From positions 1 to 64,000 of the IMG/VR virus record IMGVR_UViG_3300044959_000237: 64,000 nucleotides of DNA; one strand, given 5' to 3'. The translations under genes and the position numbers were made by a program. Shown here piece by piece: positions 2,560-61,621 of this stretch. This DNA is from a virus. The notes under the pieces are model-generated. The model saw nothing but the letters and a program-made list of their open reading frames with translations, made no database searches and was not told the origin of the DNA. The first letter of the stretch is position 1, and every line of letters starts with the position of its first letter.

Positions 2560-2907
2560 TCACTGTTGAACATAAGGAGTAATTTTCTTTATGTTTTTTA
2601 TCACACTATCCACCAAATCTTCCGGTACATACATGATGATGTAATTCAATTTTGGCAACCATTTTATTGGAAAGTTTGGATATACTTTGCTCAATTCCAG
2701 TAAATACTTGCCCGGATGCGGCCAGTTTTTTTCATGTCTTTGAAAAGTTTCGAACCATTCTTCGTGACCACCTCTGATGAACATTTCATATTTTTCTGGT
2801 TCGCTTTTTTTCAAAGCCGCCAGACTTGATCCGAAAATTTTACCATCTTTCCAAGCTTCTTCATCGTTTCCATAATGAATGATAAGACTTGTAATTCTTC
2901 TTTCCAT
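2560..2907 (-). CDS. Hypothetical protein downstream of tmRNA, 115 aa
   Basis: The function is not recognised. I chose the ATG at 2907 because an AAGGA ribosome site lies just upstream and because the longer reading frame to 2964 runs into the 3' half of the tmRNA. The product is rich in Trp, Tyr and Pro (HEEWFETF, KNWPHPGKY, IKWLPKLNYII), with a C-terminal segment that reads like a beta-strand plus helix. It may be co-transcribed with the tmRNA, as it begins right after the tmRNA's terminal pseudoknot, but a link in function is only a guess. Confidence 0.7.
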   Translation of the reverse strand: MERRITSLIIHYGNDEEAWKDGKIFGSSLAALKKSEPEKYEMFIRGGHEEWFETFQRHEKNWPHPGKYLLELSKVYPNFPIKWLPKLNYIIMYVPEDLVDSVIKNIKKITPYVQQ

Positions 2908-2921
2908 TTTTTTCAGTCCTT

Positions 2922-3218
2922 GAAGAGGGGAGTATTCTGTTGCTGGGAACTCCCCGAACCCCACTTGATTCTGCGTCGAATCAAGAATTAATTTTTTCGA
3001 TGTATTGGCTGCATTATGCTGCCAATGCCATCTTCGCTACATTGTCGTTTGCAGCTATTTTCAAGGTTATAGGTAACCACCCGGCATCTCCGATGTTATT
3101 TTTCCATTGCGTCGAACCTTTTTCGCCCCCGCGAAAAAAATATTTTCATATTTCTTTGGTGGAGGCGACGGGTACTGCCCCCGTGTCCGCAATGGTGAAT
3201 AACATCTTCATCGATACC
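2922..3218 (-). ncRNA. ssrA: Permuted two-piece tmRNA (transfer-messenger RNA)
   Basis: A tmRNA frees stalled ribosomes and tags the unfinished protein. The order here is circularly permuted. The acceptor piece comes first: one P2 strand at 3195-3188, a T-arm ACGGG/CCCGT at 3184-3168, the acceptor 3' strand CGCCTCC at 3167-3161, then A and CCA to 3157. A 26-nt spacer follows, then the coding piece starting GGGGGCG at 3130. GGGGGCG pairs over 7 bp with CGCCTCC, including the G3-U70 wobble read by alanyl-tRNA synthetase. GGTTCGACG follows, as in known tmRNAs. CGCAATGG (3111-3104) pairs perfectly with CCATTGCG (3195-3188) to close helix P2. The resume codon GCA at 3052 opens a 12-codon tag, ANDNVAKMALAA, then TAA at 3016-3014 inside a hairpin ATTGGC/GCCAAT. 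An H-type pseudoknot (TGGG/CCCA; GGGGAGT/ACTCCCC) ends near 2927. The E. coli tag is ANDENYALAA. Exact 5' and 3' ends are estimates. The T-loop (GGCAGTA) is not the canonical TTCRA type. Confidence 0.93.
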
Positions 3219-3224
3219 AATACA

Positions 3225-3253
3225 TATTTATTACCGAATAGAATATTTGTCAA
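3225..3253 (-). promoter_or_regulatory. Promoter of the tmRNA (sigma70-like, overlapping a late-type box)
   Basis: A perfect -35 TTGACA lies at 3253-3248. It is followed by a 17-base spacer and a weak -10 TAAATA at 3230-3225, placing the start near 3218 just before the acceptor piece. The same bases contain ATAAATA (3231-3225), which resembles the late promoter box seen before structural genes here, so the RNA could be made both early and late. Confidence 0.6.
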
Positions 3254-3315: not shown

Positions 3316-3573
3316 TTATTTTACGAAAACGTCATTGCTGCCATTTATGATTGTTGAAGGACAGGTTGTTGTATCTCCTGTTCCAGAAACAGGAATTCCA
3401 TTGACATATACATTGGAAGATCCACTTGCAACGAATCCATCACCACCGTCTTCACAACCAACCGTATCTCCTATTCTCGCAACGGGAATATTGTTTGCGT
3501 ATACATTGAAAGATCCACTTTTTATCGGACGATTTTCATTGGTATTATCTCCAATTCTGGCGACAGGTCTCAT
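3316..3573 (-). CDS. PAAR-type tail spike tip protein
   Basis: The product is 85 aa with the features of PAAR-repeat proteins (T4 gp5.4-like). It begins MRPVARIGD and has repeated short strands ending in (V)ARIGD, VxGxGD and GSxxVxVNGIPV. Cys and His/Asp residues near CPST could hold the metal ion. These proteins form the sharp cone at the end of the central tail spike that pierces the outer membrane. The length fits the family. It directly follows the 287-aa gene, with its ATG next to that gene's stop codon, so the two are translated from one message. Confidence in the family is high from the repeated pattern. Confidence 0.88.
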   Translation of the reverse strand: MRPVARIGDNTNENRPIKSGSFNVYANNIPVARIGDTVGCEDGGDGFVASGSSNVYVNGIPVSGTGDTTTCPSTIINGSNDVFVK

Positions 3574-3574
3574 T

Positions 3575-4438
3575 TTATCCTCCCTGTATTATTACCGGAA
3601 CGATATCATCTGGCGAATCAATTTTGGATAAGGTATTGAACGCACTTTTGACTTCATCGCTTCCAATGGCTTCGACGACTGCTCTTATACATGGATTTGT
3701 TATTACAGATAATGTAAATGCAAGAGCTTGATCCAGCAAATCCTGAGTCAGTTCCTCAAGTTGTTCAACTTCCTGTTTCAATTTATCGTAAAGAGGTTTG
3801 ATGGCTTCTTTGATAGGTTCCAAAAATTGATTTACAACATTTACTATAGCTTGTATTCCAGCTGCAATTGCTGCATTTATTGCTTGTAAAAATGTTTGAA
3901 GTATACTGTTGGCAGCATCCAGAAGTTGTTTTCCGATTCCCAAAAGAAGTCCCATGATTCCAAAATATTCGGCACATTGTTCTACTGCATTCAAATAAGT
4001 CAAATTGAAATTGTCCTTTGCACCTATTGCCGATAGTATGTTTGGCATACTTTCTGTAATGGTATTGGTATGATTCAAAATTCCCGGCAATGGAATTCCC
4101 ATTCCCTGTACTACGGTAGAAAGATCGCCATTGCTCGATAAAAGATGTTTCAAAGGAGGATAAAGACCATCGAAGACAGTTGGTTGTGCAAATCCACCAC
4201 TTCCCAAGTAAGGAGCATCCAATATCTTTACGACTTCGTTCAAAACATTGAAATTTGGATCACCCGGTCCTGTTATCAAAGATGGATTATCCATGATTCC
4301 GGTCAGAACTCCGACAACTTGACCACTCAGGTTCGTAGTTTCGGAAATTGGACCCGCCATCGTGTTGACAAAAGGCTGTCCTGCTTTTATTGCACGATAC
4401 ATCGATGCTACATTGTTGATATAAGGAATATTTGGCAT
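3575..4438 (-). CDS. Structural/baseplate-associated protein upstream of PAAR, 287 aa
   Basis: The exact function is not recognised. The middle (about residues 150-215) is strongly hydrophobic and Ala/Ile-rich (GIMGLLLGIGKQLL and AINAAIAAGIQAIVNVV), like an amphipathic or membrane-active helix bundle. It is followed by a charged coiled-coil region (KLKQEVEQLEELTQDLL). I chose the ATG at 4438 over the GTG two codons upstream because AGGAG sits 5 bases before it. Coupling to the PAAR gene suggests a tail-tip, baseplate or membrane-penetration role; this is inferred from neighbourhood only. Confidence 0.75.
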   Translation of the reverse strand: MPNIPYINNVASMYRAIKAGQPFVNTMAGPISETTNLSGQVVGVLTGIMDNPSLITGPGDPNFNVLNEVVKILDAPYLGSGGFAQPTVFDGLYPPLKHLLSSNGDLSTVVQGMGIPLPGILNHTNTITESMPNILSAIGAKDNFNLTYLNAVEQCAEYFGIMGLLLGIGKQLLDAANSILQTFLQAINAAIAAGIQAIVNVVNQFLEPIKEAIKPLYDKLKQEVEQLEELTQDLLDQALAFTLSVITNPCIRAVVEAIGSDEVKSAFNTLSKIDSPDDIVPVIIQGG

Positions 4439-4595
4439 ATTCACTCCTTTTTTGATTTTTTTTAATTTATTTAACTAATTTTCGACATATTCCTTTTCAT
4501 TTGTAAAATTTTTGTATCATGCAATCATGACATGAAGTATTTCTTATGTCGAAAGAAATATGAGCCTTTCTCGATTTCTGAAATTATGATGAATG

Positions 4596-10661: not shown

Positions 10662-10668
10662 TATTTAT
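10662..10668 (-). promoter_or_regulatory. Late-type promoter box before beta-helix fibre gene
   Basis: ATAAATA on the minus strand, about 31 bases before the ATG at 10631, the position expected of a T4-like late promoter. Confidence 0.4.
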
Positions 10669-32188: not shown

Positions 32189-32552
32189 TTAAGTAAAGAA
32201 ATTTTTCAATTTATTTGTAATTAATTTATGAAAACAAAATCGATAATAAAAAATCATGAAAGACAATTATACAATTACATTTGAATTGAACTGAAAATTT
32301 ATATTAAAGTTTTGTAAAAAAAAGCATTACAAATTTTTGAAATTCAAAAACTTCAAAAATCATGATAAAAAATTCATTTTTGCAAATTTTATGTTCGAAT
32401 ATCTTCATGAAATCGATTTTTGTATCTTTGATGGAACAATTTCGAATCACTTCGAAAAATCATGAAATTTTTTTATTTTTTTTTTTTAGTTTCCTTTCAA
32501 CTTGTTAAATATTATTGTAATAGTAATACATTCAAAACAAAAAGGTAACAAA
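32189..32552. other. Long AT-rich leader upstream of prkA
   Basis: This 364-bp stretch has no convincing gene. AAATCATGA occurs three times (32251, 32357, 32457), about 100 bp apart, which might mark a regulator's sites. A short ORF starting at 32228 (18 codons) has no ribosome site. No clear sigma70 pair was found. Confidence 0.35.
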
Positions 32553-34508
32553 ATGAAAAAAACCATTTTAAGAAACAATTACAGAAAAGCAGTAGAAATA
32601 ATGGATTTTTCAGAATATATGGAAAAACTTAAAAAAGACAGAAGCTTTTACGCATCACCAGCAGAAAGATTACTCAAGGCGATAGGAGAACCGGAACTGA
32701 TCAATACGAAAGAAGATACAAGATTATCCAAAATATTCGGAAACGAAACAATAAAGTTGTATCCTGCTTTCAAAGATTTTTATGGAATGGAAAAAACAAT
32801 AGAAAATATCGTCAATTATTTCAAATTCGTAGCACAAGGTTTGGAAGAAAAAAAGCAGATTCTTTATTTGTTGGGACCAGTCGGAGGCGGTAAATCATCT
32901 CTCGTAGAAAGAATAAAATATTTGATGGAAAAAGAACCGATATATGTTTTGGCTTTCGAAGTAAAAGACAAAGAAGGCAACAAAATAATTCAACATAGTC
33001 CGGTTTTCGAAAGTCCTCTGGGACTTTTTTCGAAAGAAAACGATGCAGAAATGTTACTGAGAGAATATGGTGTCGAATCGAGATATATTCCATCGGTGGC
33101 TTCCCCTTGGGCAATAAAAAGACTCGATGAAATTGATGGTGATGAATCGAAAATAAAAGTCGTAAAAATGTATCCATGCAGATTGAGGCAAATTGCCATA
33201 GCAAAAACGGAACCCGGTGATGAAAACAATACCGACGTCGGCTCTCTGGTCGGAAAACTCGATTTGAGAAAATTGAATATATATTCGCAAAACGATCCGG
33301 ATGCTTACAATTACTCCGGTGCTCTTTGCAGAGGAAATCAAGGCGTTGTAGATATAGTAGAAATATTCAAATCTCCGAAAGATACATTGCATCCTCTATT
33401 GACAGCCACTCAGGAAGGAAACTTTACCGGAACCGAAGAAATTGGCCCGATTCCGTTCTCGGGAATCATTCTTGCCCATTCGAATGAAACTGAATGGAAA
33501 AAATTTCGGAACAATCCGGCCAACGAAGCTTTCATAGATAGAATCTATAAAATAACCGTTCCTTATTGCCTGAGATATAGTGATGAAGTTAAAATATACA
33601 AAAAAATGCTTTCAGAAAGCAATTTGAAAGATGCTCAAACAGCACCACAAACATTGGAAACATTGGCACAATGGTCGGTTTTGACCAGATTGAAAGATCC
33701 TTCTACAGGATCCATTTATACAAAAATGAAAATTTACAATGGAGATTATATACAAAATACTGATCCGGCTGCAAAAACTTACAAGGATTATGTCGAGGAA
33801 GCCGGTTTGAATGAAGGAATGTTCGGCTCTTCGACAAGAACAGCTTTCAAACTTCTGAGTAAAACATACAATGCAGACAATGAAGAAATTGCAGCCGATC
33901 CAATAACATTGCTTTATATAATAGAAGAGCATATCGACAATGAACAATTGTCCGATGACATAAAAGAAAAATACAAATCTTTCATCAAACGTTATCTTGT
34001 TCCAAATTATTTCGAATTCATTTCGAATGAATTGAGAAAAGCATATCTTGAAAGTTACCATGATTATGGTCAGAACATTTTTGAAACATATTTTACATAC
34101 GCTGACAAGTGGTGTGACAACGAAGAATATGTGGATCCGGAAACAAAACAAACTTTTGATCGTGAATATTTGAACAAGGAACTGGAAAAAATTGAAAAAG
34201 CCGCAAATATTGCAAATCCGAAAGATTTCAGATTCGAAACGGTGAAATGGATTTACAGAAGAAAAGCCGATAATGACGGCAGAATGCCAGATTGGACAGA
34301 ATATGAAAAATTGAAAGATGTAATCGAGAAAAAAATGTTCGAAACAATCGATGATTTGCTGCCAGTAATTTCATTCAGTAAGAAATCGAGCAAGGAAATC
34401 GAAAAGAAACATGAGGAATTTGTAGATAGAATGATAAAAAAGGGTTATACCAAAAAACAAATCAAAAGATTGGTAGAATGGTTCATAAGAGTCAAGACGA
34501 ACAGGTAA
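32553..34508 (+). CDS. prkA: PrkA-type serine protein kinase (AAA+ domain)
   Basis: The 651-aa product matches PrkA/YeaG over its full length (E. coli YeaG is about 644 aa). The N-terminal AAA+ domain has LGPVGGGKSSLVERIK (Walker A about 108-115), then a long insert with the YPCRLRQIAIAK region and RGNQGVVDIVEIFK. It continues with LHPLLTATQEGNF, IILAHSNETEW and FIDRIYKITVPYCLRYSDEVKIY, all PrkA signatures, and ends with the C-terminal PrkA kinase domain. I chose the ATG at 32553 because AAAGG sits upstream. PrkA is a stress and stationary-phase serine kinase/AAA protease in bacteria, usually with YeaH and often SpoVR. It is immediately followed by yeaH. Confidence 0.95.
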   Translation: MKKTILRNNYRKAVEIMDFSEYMEKLKKDRSFYASPAERLLKAIGEPELINTKEDTRLSKIFGNETIKLYPAFKDFYGMEKTIENIVNYFKFVAQGLEEKKQILYLLGPVGGGKSSLVERIKYLMEKEPIYVLAFEVKDKEGNKIIQHSPVFESPLGLFSKENDAEMLLREYGVESRYIPSVASPWAIKRLDEIDGDESKIKVVKMYPCRLRQIAIAKTEPGDENNTDVGSLVGKLDLRKLNIYSQNDPDAYNYSGALCRGNQGVVDIVEIFKSPKDTLHPLLTATQEGNFTGTEEIGPIPFSGIILAHSNETEWKKFRNNPANEAFIDRIYKITVPYCLRYSDEVKIYKKMLSESNLKDAQTAPQTLETLAQWSVLTRLKDPSTGSIYTKMKIYNGDYIQNTDPAAKTYKDYVEEAGLNEGMFGSSTRTAFKLLSKTYNADNEEIAADPITLLYIIEEHIDNEQLSDDIKEKYKSFIKRYLVPNYFEFISNELRKAYLESYHDYGQNIFETYFTYADKWCDNEEYVDPETKQTFDREYLNKELEKIEKAANIANPKDFRFETVKWIYRRKADNDGRMPDWTEYEKLKDVIEKKMFETIDDLLPVISFSKKSSKEIEKKHEEFVDRMIKKGYTKKQIKRLVEWFIRVKTNR

Positions 34509-34525
34509 CAACAAAAGTAATACAA

Positions 34526-35821
34526 ATGAAACATTACATAATAGATAGAAGAAAAAATCCAAAAGGTAAAAGTGTAACAAATCGACAGAAATTCATTGAA
34601 AAATACAAAAAACAAATAAAGGAAGTTGTCAAGAAATCAATAAAAGAAGGAAAAATTCAGGATATTGGAAATGATGGTGCAATTGTTACAATTCCGAAAG
34701 ATAATTTATCGGAACCGAATATCGATTATGACAGAAAAACCGGAAAAAAAGATCTGGTTGTTCCTCATAATCCCGGATACAATGAAGGAGATACTATTGA
34801 AAAACCCAAAGGAGGAGGCGGAAACGGTACAGGAAAGGGAAACGCTTCCGGTTCCGGAGAAGGCGAAGATCAGTTTCAATTCAAGATCAGTCGTGACGAA
34901 TTTTTCGACTTGCTTTTCGAAGATCTGGAATTACCAAATCTTGTAAAAAAGAAGTTCGAAGAACTTGAACAATTCAAGTTGAAAAGAGCCGGGTTCAAAA
35001 ATCGTGGTGATCCCGTAAATCTCGACATAAAACAAACTTTCAGAAAAAGTTACATGAGGCGAATAAGTCTCAATCGTCCAGATGAAAGTGAAATCGAAGA
35101 TTTGGAAGTAAAAATCAAAAACGAAAAAGACGAGAACAAGAAAAAGGAATTGATTCGACAACTCGAAGAAATGAAAAGAAAAATTTTAGAAATTCCTTTT
35201 CTCGACAATCTGGATTTGAAATTGAGAAATTTCGAACCCAGACCCTTGCCTTCGAATAGAGCCGTCATGTTTGCCATCATGGATGTTTCAGCATCCATGG
35301 ACGAAGAAAAAAAGACCATTTCCAAAATATTCTTTCTTCTTCTTTATACTTTTTTGAGAAAAAAATACGACAAGGTGGAAATAGTTTTCATAAGACATCA
35401 TTCTGTTGCAGAAGAAACAAACGAAGAAGACTTTTTTCACAAGAAAGAAACAGGTGGTACGGTTGTCAGTTCTGCTCTCGAACTGTCTTTGAAAATAATA
35501 GAAGAAAGATATTCGCCAGAAGAATGGAACATATATTTTTCTCAAAGTTCCGATGGTGACAATTACGAGACAGACAATTCCAAAGTTATTGCTTTGACAA
35601 ATAAAATTTTGGACATATGTCAGTATTTTGCTTATATAGAAATTGATACAAGATATTCCAATTACGATATCTGGAACATGAATACGATACGGGGAGAAAC
35701 AAGTTTGTGGAAAACTTACAAAAAGATCAATAATCCAATTCTTCAAATGTCTGTTATAAGAAACAGAAAAGAAATCTGGAACGTATTCAGAAGTTTGTTT
35801 TCGAAAAACGAAAAACAGTAA
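34526..35821 (+). CDS. yeaH: YeaH/YhbH family protein (DUF444, von Willebrand A domain)
   Basis: The 431-aa product aligns by eye along its whole length with E. coli YeaH. It has IDRRKNPKGKSVTNRQKFI at the start, VTIPKDNLSEP, a Gly-rich linker (KGGGGNGTGKGNASGSGEGE), FQFKISRDEFFDLLFEDLEL, then a vWA domain with the metal-binding DVSASMD motif (about 253-260). FIRHHSVAEETNEEDFFHKK, ETGGTVVSSAL and SSDGDNY follow. I chose the ATG at 34526, which gives the family N-terminus; an ATG at 34478 would overlap prkA. In bacteria YeaG and YeaH work together, YeaH being a phosphorylation target or adaptor. It lies 17 bases after prkA in the same operon. SpoVR is not present. Confidence 0.95.
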   Translation: MKHYIIDRRKNPKGKSVTNRQKFIEKYKKQIKEVVKKSIKEGKIQDIGNDGAIVTIPKDNLSEPNIDYDRKTGKKDLVVPHNPGYNEGDTIEKPKGGGGNGTGKGNASGSGEGEDQFQFKISRDEFFDLLFEDLELPNLVKKKFEELEQFKLKRAGFKNRGDPVNLDIKQTFRKSYMRRISLNRPDESEIEDLEVKIKNEKDENKKKELIRQLEEMKRKILEIPFLDNLDLKLRNFEPRPLPSNRAVMFAIMDVSASMDEEKKTISKIFFLLLYTFLRKKYDKVEIVFIRHHSVAEETNEEDFFHKKETGGTVVSSALELSLKIIEERYSPEEWNIYFSQSSDGDNYETDNSKVIALTNKILDICQYFAYIEIDTRYSNYDIWNMNTIRGETSLWKTYKKINNPILQMSVIRNRKEIWNVFRSLFSKNEKQ

Positions 35822-43387: not shown

Positions 43388-45580
43388 CTACCATGGTATT
43401 TCTTTGTAAAGATTTCTCGATTCCATCGATTCTTTCCATTCTTTCATTACATCATCGACAATATTTTTTCTGTTTTTTCTCAGTAATTCCATTATTCTTT
43501 TGATACTTTTGAGATCTTCGGCTTTTGCATCATTTCCGAGCAAAATTTTGGCTATTTTGTTCTTGTCCTTGATTTCTGGGGAAATTATCGTATCTTTTCT
43601 GTTTTTCAAAGGTTTTCCATCTTTTGTTCTTATTTCGGAAATTATTCTGATCAATCCGTCTTTTGGACTGTATCTCCATCTTTCTATTCGTACGGGAATT
43701 CCATCTATTTTTTCTTCAGAAACCTTTCTGTCCAAGAATTTTGCTATGGAACCTAACAGTGAGTTGAGATGAGCTCCTTTGAATTCTTCTTCGATTGGAC
43801 TTACATAATACGATTTCAACCAATTTACATCACCAAATATCAAATCGATCTGAACATGATCTTTTGTTCCTGCTACAGGATATTTCAGATGTATCATCGA
43901 TGATAATATCTTATGTGCATAATTCGAATTTTTTACTTTTTGTTTAATTTCATCATACATGCTTTCCGGAAGAGCGATATCTATATCACTCGATATCTGT
44001 TTTACAAAAGCACTTCCAAGAAGATTGTTTTTCAGAATTTCGAAAGGTATATCGAGATCTTTGGACAAATTTTCAAGAGTTGGTAATATTTTGCTTTTTT
44101 CTATTTTCACTGTTTCAGGAAAGACGTTTCCTCCTTCTTTCAGCAAGTTTCTCGAATATCTTTTTTCAACCAGTTTTTCTTTTCCCGAAAAAAGTATGAA
44201 AACAACATCTTCGATATTTTTACCTTTATCAAGTTGTTTCAACATTTCTTCCAAATCTGCTCGAAATTCTGCAAAAGTTTCCAACGTTTTTCTGTGTTGA
44301 GCATTGGTATATTCGAACGTTCTGTCTATTTTTTCGAGATATATTTTGATTCTGTTTCTGTTTCTTTTGTAATATTCCAACATTGCATCGAGTGCTTTGA
44401 TTGCTTTGGTCAGAATTTCTTTTATTTTGTTTTTGACTTCATCTACGGGTTTGTTTATTTCTATTCTTTCCCGATTCTTTATTTTATTTCTCAATTCTAT
44501 TGGTTTGTAACCAAGAACATTCGATATTCTGGATACAATTTTGGAGAAATAAGAACCGGTTTTTTTGGATAAATTACTGTCTTTCAGTAATGATCTTACT
44601 TTCCAGTTGAATTTGTTCAATTCTGTAAAAATATCTTTATCTACCAACTTGAAACTTTTTCCTGTAATTCGATCCCGGAATACTACTCCTTCTATCCATC
44701 CACCTTCTTCGAATTTCGGACCAAATTTGCTTTCGAGATTTCTTACGAAATGATTCAACAAATCTTCCTTGATATTGAGTTTCATTTGCATTATCTGATC
44801 TTTTATTCTGTTTTTTTCTTCTTTTATCTTTTCTTTCAGAATTTCCCAATCATTTCTTTCGATGTTGTTTGGTTTTCTATTCAGTGGAATGGAAATGATG
44901 TCTATGTTATTCAGTCCTTTTATGTTGGAAGGATGTGAAAGATAATTTTCGATGTTCCTTATTTTCTTTTCCAAAACATTTCTCAAATGTTCTTTATCGA
45001 TAATATTCGGGTTTATTCTAGGCGTAACATCGAACAACCAGACATGTTTTTCTGCAATTTTTCTGATTGTTTTTCCATCGTCTGTAAAAGGAACGTCCAA
45101 TACGACCTCGACTCTTTTTCCTTTCAGATAATCGACCAGTTTTTCAAATCTGTCTTGTAATTTTTCTTTTTCTTTCTGAGCAGAAAATGGATTCAACAAT
45201 ACTACCTGATTTTCATCGCCTTTGTAAGGAACAGTGTTGGGAAGTTCTCCGAATAGTATTTCAGCCACGAAAGAATCACCGGGATATACTATTTTATTCA
45301 ATATATCGAATAAGACTTTTTCAAGAGCCAGATGAGCACTTCTGAATCCTGTTGTCCAAAATTTCAAAGGATAATCTTTTTCATTGTAAAATCTTTTACC
45401 ACCTTTCATTTCTCTGGAAGTATAAAATTTGCCATTTTCGTCGAAACCAAATATTATATTTGCACCATCTATTTTTTCAGTTATTTCGAATTCGTTGATT
45501 TTTTTTATTGTTTCCAGAAAATCCAAAACGGGCAGATCTTCTATATGTACAAGTCCTTCTGTCAAATGTTTCAAAAACAT
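43388..45580 (-). CDS. Ligase-nucleotidyltransferase fusion protein, 730 aa
   Basis: The N-terminal half is a covalent nucleotidyltransferase of the DNA/RNA ligase superfamily: ITEKIDGANIIFG (catalytic Lys 36), FYTSREMKGG, FVAEILFGE, WIEGVVFRD and SFKLVDKD (motifs IV and V, about 305-325). A charged helical linker follows. The C-terminal part has LLGSAFVKQISSDIDIALPE and HVQIDLIFGD, a DNA polymerase beta-type nucleotidyltransferase core with Gly-Ser and paired Asp residues. Ligation and nucleotide addition in one protein suggest end repair of RNA (for example tRNA cut by host nucleases) or DNA. The exact substrate is unknown. AAGGGGG precedes the ATG. Confidence 0.8.
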   Translation of the reverse strand: MFLKHLTEGLVHIEDLPVLDFLETIKKINEFEITEKIDGANIIFGFDENGKFYTSREMKGGKRFYNEKDYPLKFWTTGFRSAHLALEKVLFDILNKIVYPGDSFVAEILFGELPNTVPYKGDENQVVLLNPFSAQKEKEKLQDRFEKLVDYLKGKRVEVVLDVPFTDDGKTIRKIAEKHVWLFDVTPRINPNIIDKEHLRNVLEKKIRNIENYLSHPSNIKGLNNIDIISIPLNRKPNNIERNDWEILKEKIKEEKNRIKDQIMQMKLNIKEDLLNHFVRNLESKFGPKFEEGGWIEGVVFRDRITGKSFKLVDKDIFTELNKFNWKVRSLLKDSNLSKKTGSYFSKIVSRISNVLGYKPIELRNKIKNRERIEINKPVDEVKNKIKEILTKAIKALDAMLEYYKRNRNRIKIYLEKIDRTFEYTNAQHRKTLETFAEFRADLEEMLKQLDKGKNIEDVVFILFSGKEKLVEKRYSRNLLKEGGNVFPETVKIEKSKILPTLENLSKDLDIPFEILKNNLLGSAFVKQISSDIDIALPESMYDEIKQKVKNSNYAHKILSSMIHLKYPVAGTKDHVQIDLIFGDVNWLKSYYVSPIEEEFKGAHLNSLLGSIAKFLDRKVSEEKIDGIPVRIERWRYSPKDGLIRIISEIRTKDGKPLKNRKDTIISPEIKDKNKIAKILLGNDAKAEDLKSIKRIMELLRKNRKNIVDDVMKEWKESMESRNLYKEIPW

Positions 45581-61471: not shown

Positions 61472-61500
61472 ATTATATGTTTCACTTGTTCTGAATTCAA
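61472..61500 (-). promoter_or_regulatory. Sigma70-like promoter of the gp32 gene
   Basis: -35 TTGAAT (61500-61495), a 17-base spacer and perfect -10 TATAAT (61477-61472). The start would be near 61465, leaving a leader of about 75 bases. Confidence 0.75.
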
Positions 61501-61621
61501 TATAAAAGTCGAACGAAAAAAAATTTTTCGTGAAACTTTTCAATTTGTTCGAAAAACAAAGCAAAATTCTTCCAAGTTTTCTAAAATGAATTTTCGAAAA
61601 AAAAAACTTGCAAGATACATT
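61501..61621. other. Intergenic gap upstream of the gp32 promoter
   Basis: AT-rich; no gene or further motif seen between the gp32 promoter and the thyX stop. Confidence 0.3.

Follow-up and report, generated by a model that had tools for sequence, protein, structure and literature searches.

A complete two-piece, alphaproteobacterial-type tmRNA gene in a virus record related to jumbo phages

The window analysed here comprises the first 64 kb of a virus record of 111,268 bp and carries on its minus strand a complete permuted tmRNA gene, very probably the source of a functional, phage-encoded two-piece tmRNA that rescues ribosomes together with the SmpB protein of the host and tags with ANDNVAKMALAA. 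What was observed for this gene comprises its anatomy, its homology, a promoter motif and the pairing of its acceptor and T stems, conserved among related phages. The elements of the locus are the following.

3316 to 3573, minus strand: PAAR-motif protein gene, directly upstream of the tmRNA (phrog_281, E=1e-21)
3248 to 3253, minus strand: TTGACA, putative -35 box of host sigma-70 type (sequence; counterparts in metavirome record G038 and in Sinorhizobium phage Phosso)
3225 to 3232, minus strand: AATAAATA, putative phage promoter motif, T4-late-like -10 (motif counts over the record)
3157 to 3218, minus strand: acceptor piece, with the P2 5' strands, the T arm (loop GGCAGUA), CGCCTCC and ACCA (RF01849, RF04321, ARAGORN, co-fold)
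3131 to 3156, minus strand: internal spacer of 26 nt, expected to be excised (parsed from the sequence)
2926 to 3130, minus strand: coding piece, with GGGGGCG, the P2 3' strands, the tag frame, a 3' hairpin and the pseudoknot (RF01849 to the model end; sequence)
3014 to 3052, minus strand: tag frame GCAAACGACAATGTAGCGAAGATGGCATTGGCAGCATAA, encoding ANDNVAKMALAA, with the stop codon TAA (ARAGORN; end of the RF04321 match)
2926 to 2963, minus strand: 3' terminal pseudoknot with the conserved GCAACAGAA (sequence, aligned to the RF01849 3' end)
2560 to 2907, minus strand: downstream open reading frame (ORF) of about 115 aa, with AAGGA, resembling a ribosome-binding site, before its ATG (sequence)

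ARAGORN called one tmRNA in the window, of the permuted class (tmRNA*, 3249-2923, minus strand), with the tag ANDNVAKMALAA. The covariance-model search proposed in the first-pass annotation gave a full-length match to Rfam RF01849, alpha_tmRNA (3257-2926, minus strand; 149.4 bits, E=5e-41, model positions 1-355), and a match to RF04321, tmRNA_permuted (3219-3014, minus strand; 104.2 bits, model positions 1-213), whose alignment stops at the stop codon of the tag; both scores lie well above the curated gathering cut-offs of 50 and 47 bits, respectively. The match is not a chance one, and the initial description of a complete, permuted split tmRNA on the minus strand of a phage genome was borne out, as was its alphaproteobacterial type, with which both the RF01849 match and the T-loop GGCAGUA agree.

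The permuted order is evident in the sequence, where an acceptor piece ending in ACCA (last base 3157) is followed by the spacer and by the coding piece, which begins at 3130. The acceptor stem pairs GGGGGCG (3130-3124) with CGCCTCC (3167-3161) in seven of seven positions, including G3-U70, and the T arm reads ACGGG-GGCAGTA-CCCGT, its loop being of the alphaproteobacterial type and shared by 17 of 25 parsed bacterial genes. A count of the G3-U70 pair in all 62 viral permuted tmRNAs that were parsed carries no weight, most of those bases being fixed by the search pattern and the parser. The P2 helix is present, but the 8 bp first assigned to it proved too short, and three blocks were found (GGTATC/GATGCC, GATGTTATT/AATAACATC and CCATTGCG/CGCAATGG). 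Co-folding of the two pieces, which the P2 helix links, gave -50.0 kcal/mol against -29.5 +/- 3.4 kcal/mol in 300 dinucleotide shuffles of the same two pieces (z=-6.0; lowest shuffle -40.5 kcal/mol). In the coding piece, the tag codons (3052-3017) start with the resume codon GCA, encode a hydrophobic C-terminal end and are closed by TAA at 3016-3014; furthermore, a hairpin is formed by CTTGATTC/GAATCAAG, and in the terminal pseudoknot GGGGAGT pairs with ACTCCCC and TGGG with CCCA in the loop. The acceptor stem, the tag with its stop and the pseudoknot thus correspond to what had been annotated at first.

The retention of a full coding piece, of a tag frame ending in ALAA with its stop and of the terminal pseudoknot bears on the proposal that the RNA is a decoy, titrating host SmpB or blocking the host tmRNA. 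A precedent would be mycobacteriophage DS6A, whose sequence holds the tRNA-like domain only, and such a DS6A-like domain inhibits the tmRNA of E. coli (PMC4131195, PMC11915505). However, the window gene keeps the parts that tagging would use, and the LAA ending of the tag is kept in five of the six phages compared, so that we regard a decoy as most improbable.

As for the genome in which the gene lies, the record encodes a terminase, a DNA polymerase, a UvsX recombinase, a single-stranded DNA-binding protein, a DnaB helicase, a primase, a tail tube protein, a tape-measure-like protein and a PAAR protein, and this phage protein set, in a virus record, identifies a genuine phage genome. The record carries no completeness estimate and is probably a fragment. 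The closest match of its terminase is that of Sinorhizobium phage Phosso (47.5% identity; 469-kb genome), followed by those of PA5oct-like Pseudomonas phages, Xanthomonas phage XaC1, Agrobacterium phage Atu_ph07 and Asteriusvirus-like phages, and most of the phages matched have genomes of 280-490 kb. The helicase comparison gave the same affiliation (the jumbo phages Phosso, PA5oct and Atu_ph07), and the record is therefore, in all likelihood, a piece of a jumbo myovirus genome. No phage record was matched by Megablast with the first 25 kb of the window, scans of viral contigs with the PAAR protein and with a 730-aa protein of the window found no relatives, and a single-sequence scan with the terminase returned one 8-kb fragment at 98%, in which no tmRNA was matched.

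We searched the whole records of the terminase relatives with the RF04321 model. Phosso was found to carry a permuted tmRNA (PV764938.1, 349596-350198, minus strand; L135 1501-2103; 113 bits) at a position where its record annotation has no feature and which ARAGORN misses; its two pieces are separated by 410 nt, against 26 nt in the window, and an Rfam search of this spacer found no intron and no other credible family. Of 50 metavirome records with related terminases, four (G038, G030, G021 and G010) likewise carry permuted tmRNAs. The same search found none in Atu_ph07, PA5oct, XaC1 and 121Q, Atu_ph07 having been published with zero tmRNA (PMC11242549), and the gene is therefore dispensable in this phage group. 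In all six genes (window, Phosso and the four metavirome records) the acceptor stem is fully paired over 7 bp, with compensatory changes at G5-C/C6-G of the window, which are C-G/U-A in Phosso and G030 and A-U/U-A in G021, and the T stems covary as well. The acceptor stems are intact in spite of a terminase identity between these relatives and the window phage of only about 44-48%, so that the broken pairing in homologous phages which the first-pass annotation had named as an argument against the gene did not appear. The alphaproteobacterial model RF01849 matches the tmRNAs of the window, Phosso and G038, whereas those of G030, G021 and G010 match the general permuted model only. Given these different types and the absence of the gene from some relatives, gain, loss and exchange of tmRNA seem to be frequent in the group.

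Two of the metavirome genes show peculiarities of their own. That of G021 (L344 5150-5496, in a 328-kb record) has a spacer of just 7 nt and an unusual tag with Glu in first position, ENDEIFALAA, and that of G010 (L345 4872-5316) is divergent, with an odd, long tag frame of 28 codons, and may be non-canonical or decaying. The spacers of the homologues in other phages range from 7 to 410 nt and those of the 62 parsed viral permuted tmRNAs from 7 to 235 nt (median about 70 nt); compared with the median of about 30 nt in 25 parsed alphaproteobacterial genes, the viral spacers look longer, the two samples having been drawn by different searches.

The tag of the window gene keeps the usual AND...ALAA form of bacterial tags, and searches of 84,980 species genomes and of 385 alphaproteobacterial genomes did not find its exact sequence. 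A similar tag among relatives, the lack of which had been held to count against the gene, is present in Phosso (ANDNVSTKVALAA, as translated from its sequence), and the viral contig L387 (ANDNVSPMALAA) shares with both the form ANDNV...ALAA. This common form, together with the absence of the exact tag from the genomes searched, would suit a functional tmRNA serving mainly to alter the fate of nascent chains through a phage-type tag (for example, in the selective turnover of host proteins) and not for general rescue. However, the form is the ordinary bacterial one, and the tag middles of other relatives are quite different (ANDNFVTSYALAA, ENDEIFALAA); this alternative is, in our judgement, quite improbable, and we retain ribosome rescue as the preferred function.

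Upstream of the gene, the string TTGACA-N17-TAAATA first proposed as its promoter does exist (3253-3225), and its TTGACA box stands; the site as a whole is not of the standard sigma-70 kind, TAAATA being a poor -10 of this type and the site not being listed by a consensus sigma-70 scanner. Below the TTGACA box, a better reading of the -10 is a motif of the phage itself, AATAAATA, which lies some seven bases ahead of the acceptor piece. Among the 8-mers located 15-70 nt ahead of the gene starts of the 111-kb record, counted without bias, AATAAATA ranked first (17 of its 31 copies; binomial p=4.8e-18, per word and uncorrected), and its 31 copies in the record compare with 16.9 +/- 3.5 expected from shuffles. 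It often lies 25-60 nt ahead of genes, structural genes among them (in the window, for example, at 10662, 14442, 23657 and 42610), and resembles the T4-type late promoter TATAAATA with the first base changed; TATAAATA itself was rejected as the enriched motif (7 copies versus 5.4 expected), AATAAATA being the enriched form. At the corresponding place, the tmRNA of G038 is preceded by TTGACA-N17-TATAAATA and that of Phosso by TTGACT-N18-TAAATA. Dual transcription of the tmRNA, early and late, is possible on the basis of these motifs. We tentatively suggest, as a rather speculative extension, that the gene might be wired into both phases, with TTGACA used early by the host polymerase and AATAAATA later by a phage-modified polymerase, so that rescue would operate throughout infection. 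If so, the transcript would begin with the acceptor piece, and rescue with a tag of the lineage-typical form ANDNV...ALAA would not depend on the degraded host chromosome.

Some 60 nt separate the end of the PAAR gene from the TTGACA box, and the PAAR product is 31.5% identical over 92 aa to the PAAR protein of Phosso, whose tmRNA sits two genes below the PAAR gene. A PAAR gene was not found near the tmRNAs of G038, G030, G021 and G010, so that this neighbourhood is common only to the window and Phosso. On the PAAR side, the window has several ORFs with homologues in the same wider region of Phosso, in rearranged order, and the protein next to PAAR (3575-4444) had no match in Phosso and Atu_ph07. 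The shared arrangement suggests, but is no proof of, an inherited tmRNA location. On the other side, the downstream ORF begins about 20 nt past the tmRNA, and a family search with its longer version (2560-2964) gave no hit. SmpB (PF01668) had no match in the 111-kb record, while 10 of 14 control genomes were positive; the absence is not final, since the record is a fragment. Known phage tmRNAs are not defined by an SmpB of the phage's own, and with none found in the record, the host protein would be needed.

Elsewhere in the window, the region 32502-35821 (plus strand) encodes a PrkA serine kinase (515 bits) and, after it, a DUF444/YeaH-like protein (485 bits), a bacterial stress-kinase pair here occurring in a phage; the kinase shares 53-57% identity with those of metagenomic phages of 635-642 kb and of the Enterobacter phage LAU1 record (30.8 kb). 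The 730-aa protein mentioned above (43388-45580, minus strand) carries an RNA-ligase domain at its N terminus (27.7 bits, just over the Pfam cut-off), and in Phosso the homologous stretches are divided between two adjacent ORFs. A tRNA-Glu called by ARAGORN at 61493-61591 (minus strand) was rejected as a probable false positive, the sequence being AT rich and without an Rfam tRNA match.

Blastn of the tmRNA gene against the 385 alphaproteobacterial genomes matched T-arm and acceptor stretches only, with a best match of 80% over about 84 nt, and against phages all matches were short, 32-42 nt within the acceptor and T arm. Elements commonly integrate at ssrA, fragments of which are known from prophages (PMC9004378, PMC12595487), and some relatives lack the window gene; it could accordingly be a passenger, a host ssrA captured by chance, for example through imprecise excision of an integrated element, and still to be lost. 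Against this stand the limited bacterial match, which argues against recent accidental capture, the completeness of a gene that is no fragment, the phage promoter motif on it, the Phosso tmRNA likewise near PAAR and the covariation of acceptor and T stems among relatives. Moreover, tags of the form ANDNVAxxALAA occurred in only four of the 84,980 species genomes, all of them alphaproteobacterial metagenome-assembled genomes in which the variable place is filled by HE or QE. We consider a passenger improbable and keep to the functional phage gene. The alphaproteobacterial-specific model, the T-loop and the Sinorhizobium host of Phosso, the best terminase match, make an alphaproteobacterial host plausible. 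The earlier view that the tmRNA points to the host lineage holds to this extent and not as proof, because the phage Melnitz infects an OM43 gammaproteobacterium and yet has an alpha-type tmRNA (PMC9004378), and because relatives carry other types; the tmRNA type is only a hint.

The gene resembles the Caulobacter-type alphaproteobacterial tmRNA (RF01849) in its acceptor-spacer-coding order, T-loop, G3-U70, long P2, AND-initial tag and terminal pseudoknot with GCAACAGAA. Different from these bacterial genes, it is phage encoded, scores lower (149 bits, against 216-245 bits in four bacterial members checked), has a phage promoter motif and bears a tag middle, VAKM, not found in the genomes searched. 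The tmRNA genes of mycobacteriophages and of Bacillus phage G are one-piece and not permuted, whereas the window gene is permuted and two-piece; in common with them (PMC4131195), it is phage encoded and host SmpB is presumed. With Melnitz and other marine or aquatic phages (PMC9004378) it shares being a permuted alpha-type tmRNA carried by a lytic myovirus, but the window phage belongs to the jumbo lineage of Phosso, PA5oct and Atu_ph07, the DNA similarity is confined to about 30 nt of the acceptor/T arm, and, in contrast to Melnitz with its glutamine riboswitch, no riboswitch was found in the window (Rfam, gathering threshold). Phosso agrees in having an alpha-type permuted tmRNA near PAAR, the tag form, a TTGAC -35 and a TAAATA -10, and differs in its long spacer and in an extra Ser-rich gene between PAAR and tmRNA.

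That a permuted phage tmRNA should be unusual, as stated at first, was an overstatement. In a survey of 2022, 53 of 133 unique phage tmRNA structures were two-piece, 50 of these 53 genes coming from marine or aquatic phages (PMC9004378), and the 471-kb Sinorhizobium jumbo phage AP-J-162 has an annotated tmRNA (PMC11242549). Our two pattern scans of IMG/VR viral contigs gave at least 120 matches each, and ARAGORN on 200 of the listed loci called 86 tmRNAs, 62 of them permuted; since certain types are favoured by the patterns and prophages may be among the contigs, these figures count examples and are not a rate. The window tmRNA is a good example of an already known kind, carried by dozens of phages.

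By analogy with established tmRNA biology, we infer transcription, processing, charging, tagging and a benefit to the phage. A single transcript would start near 3218 from TTGACA and AATAAATA, and host tRNA-processing enzymes would cut out the spacer, leaving two RNAs, acceptor and coding, which the acceptor stem and P2 would keep joined. Host AlaRS would charge the molecule with alanine via G3-U70, host SmpB and EF-Tu would deliver it to stalled ribosomes, translation would switch to the tag, and the product would be degraded by host proteases recognising the C-terminal LAA. It is possible to hypothesize that the phage gains a supply of ribosomes, kept free during the cleavage of host and phage mRNAs and the possible destruction of the host tmRNA gene.

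Since a permuted gene whose spacer is very long escapes ARAGORN, surveys relying on it alone (e.g., PMC9004378) may undercount such genes. The most useful by-products of this analysis are the promoter motif of the phage and the long-spacer tmRNA of a phage that has been isolated and can be cultivated. The window phage, with its complete two-piece tmRNA, has the largest cultured jumbo phages of alphaproteobacteria among its relatives, and Phosso, cultured on a Sinorhizobium host and with a tmRNA hitherto unannotated, offers a tractable system for studying why phages carry tmRNA.
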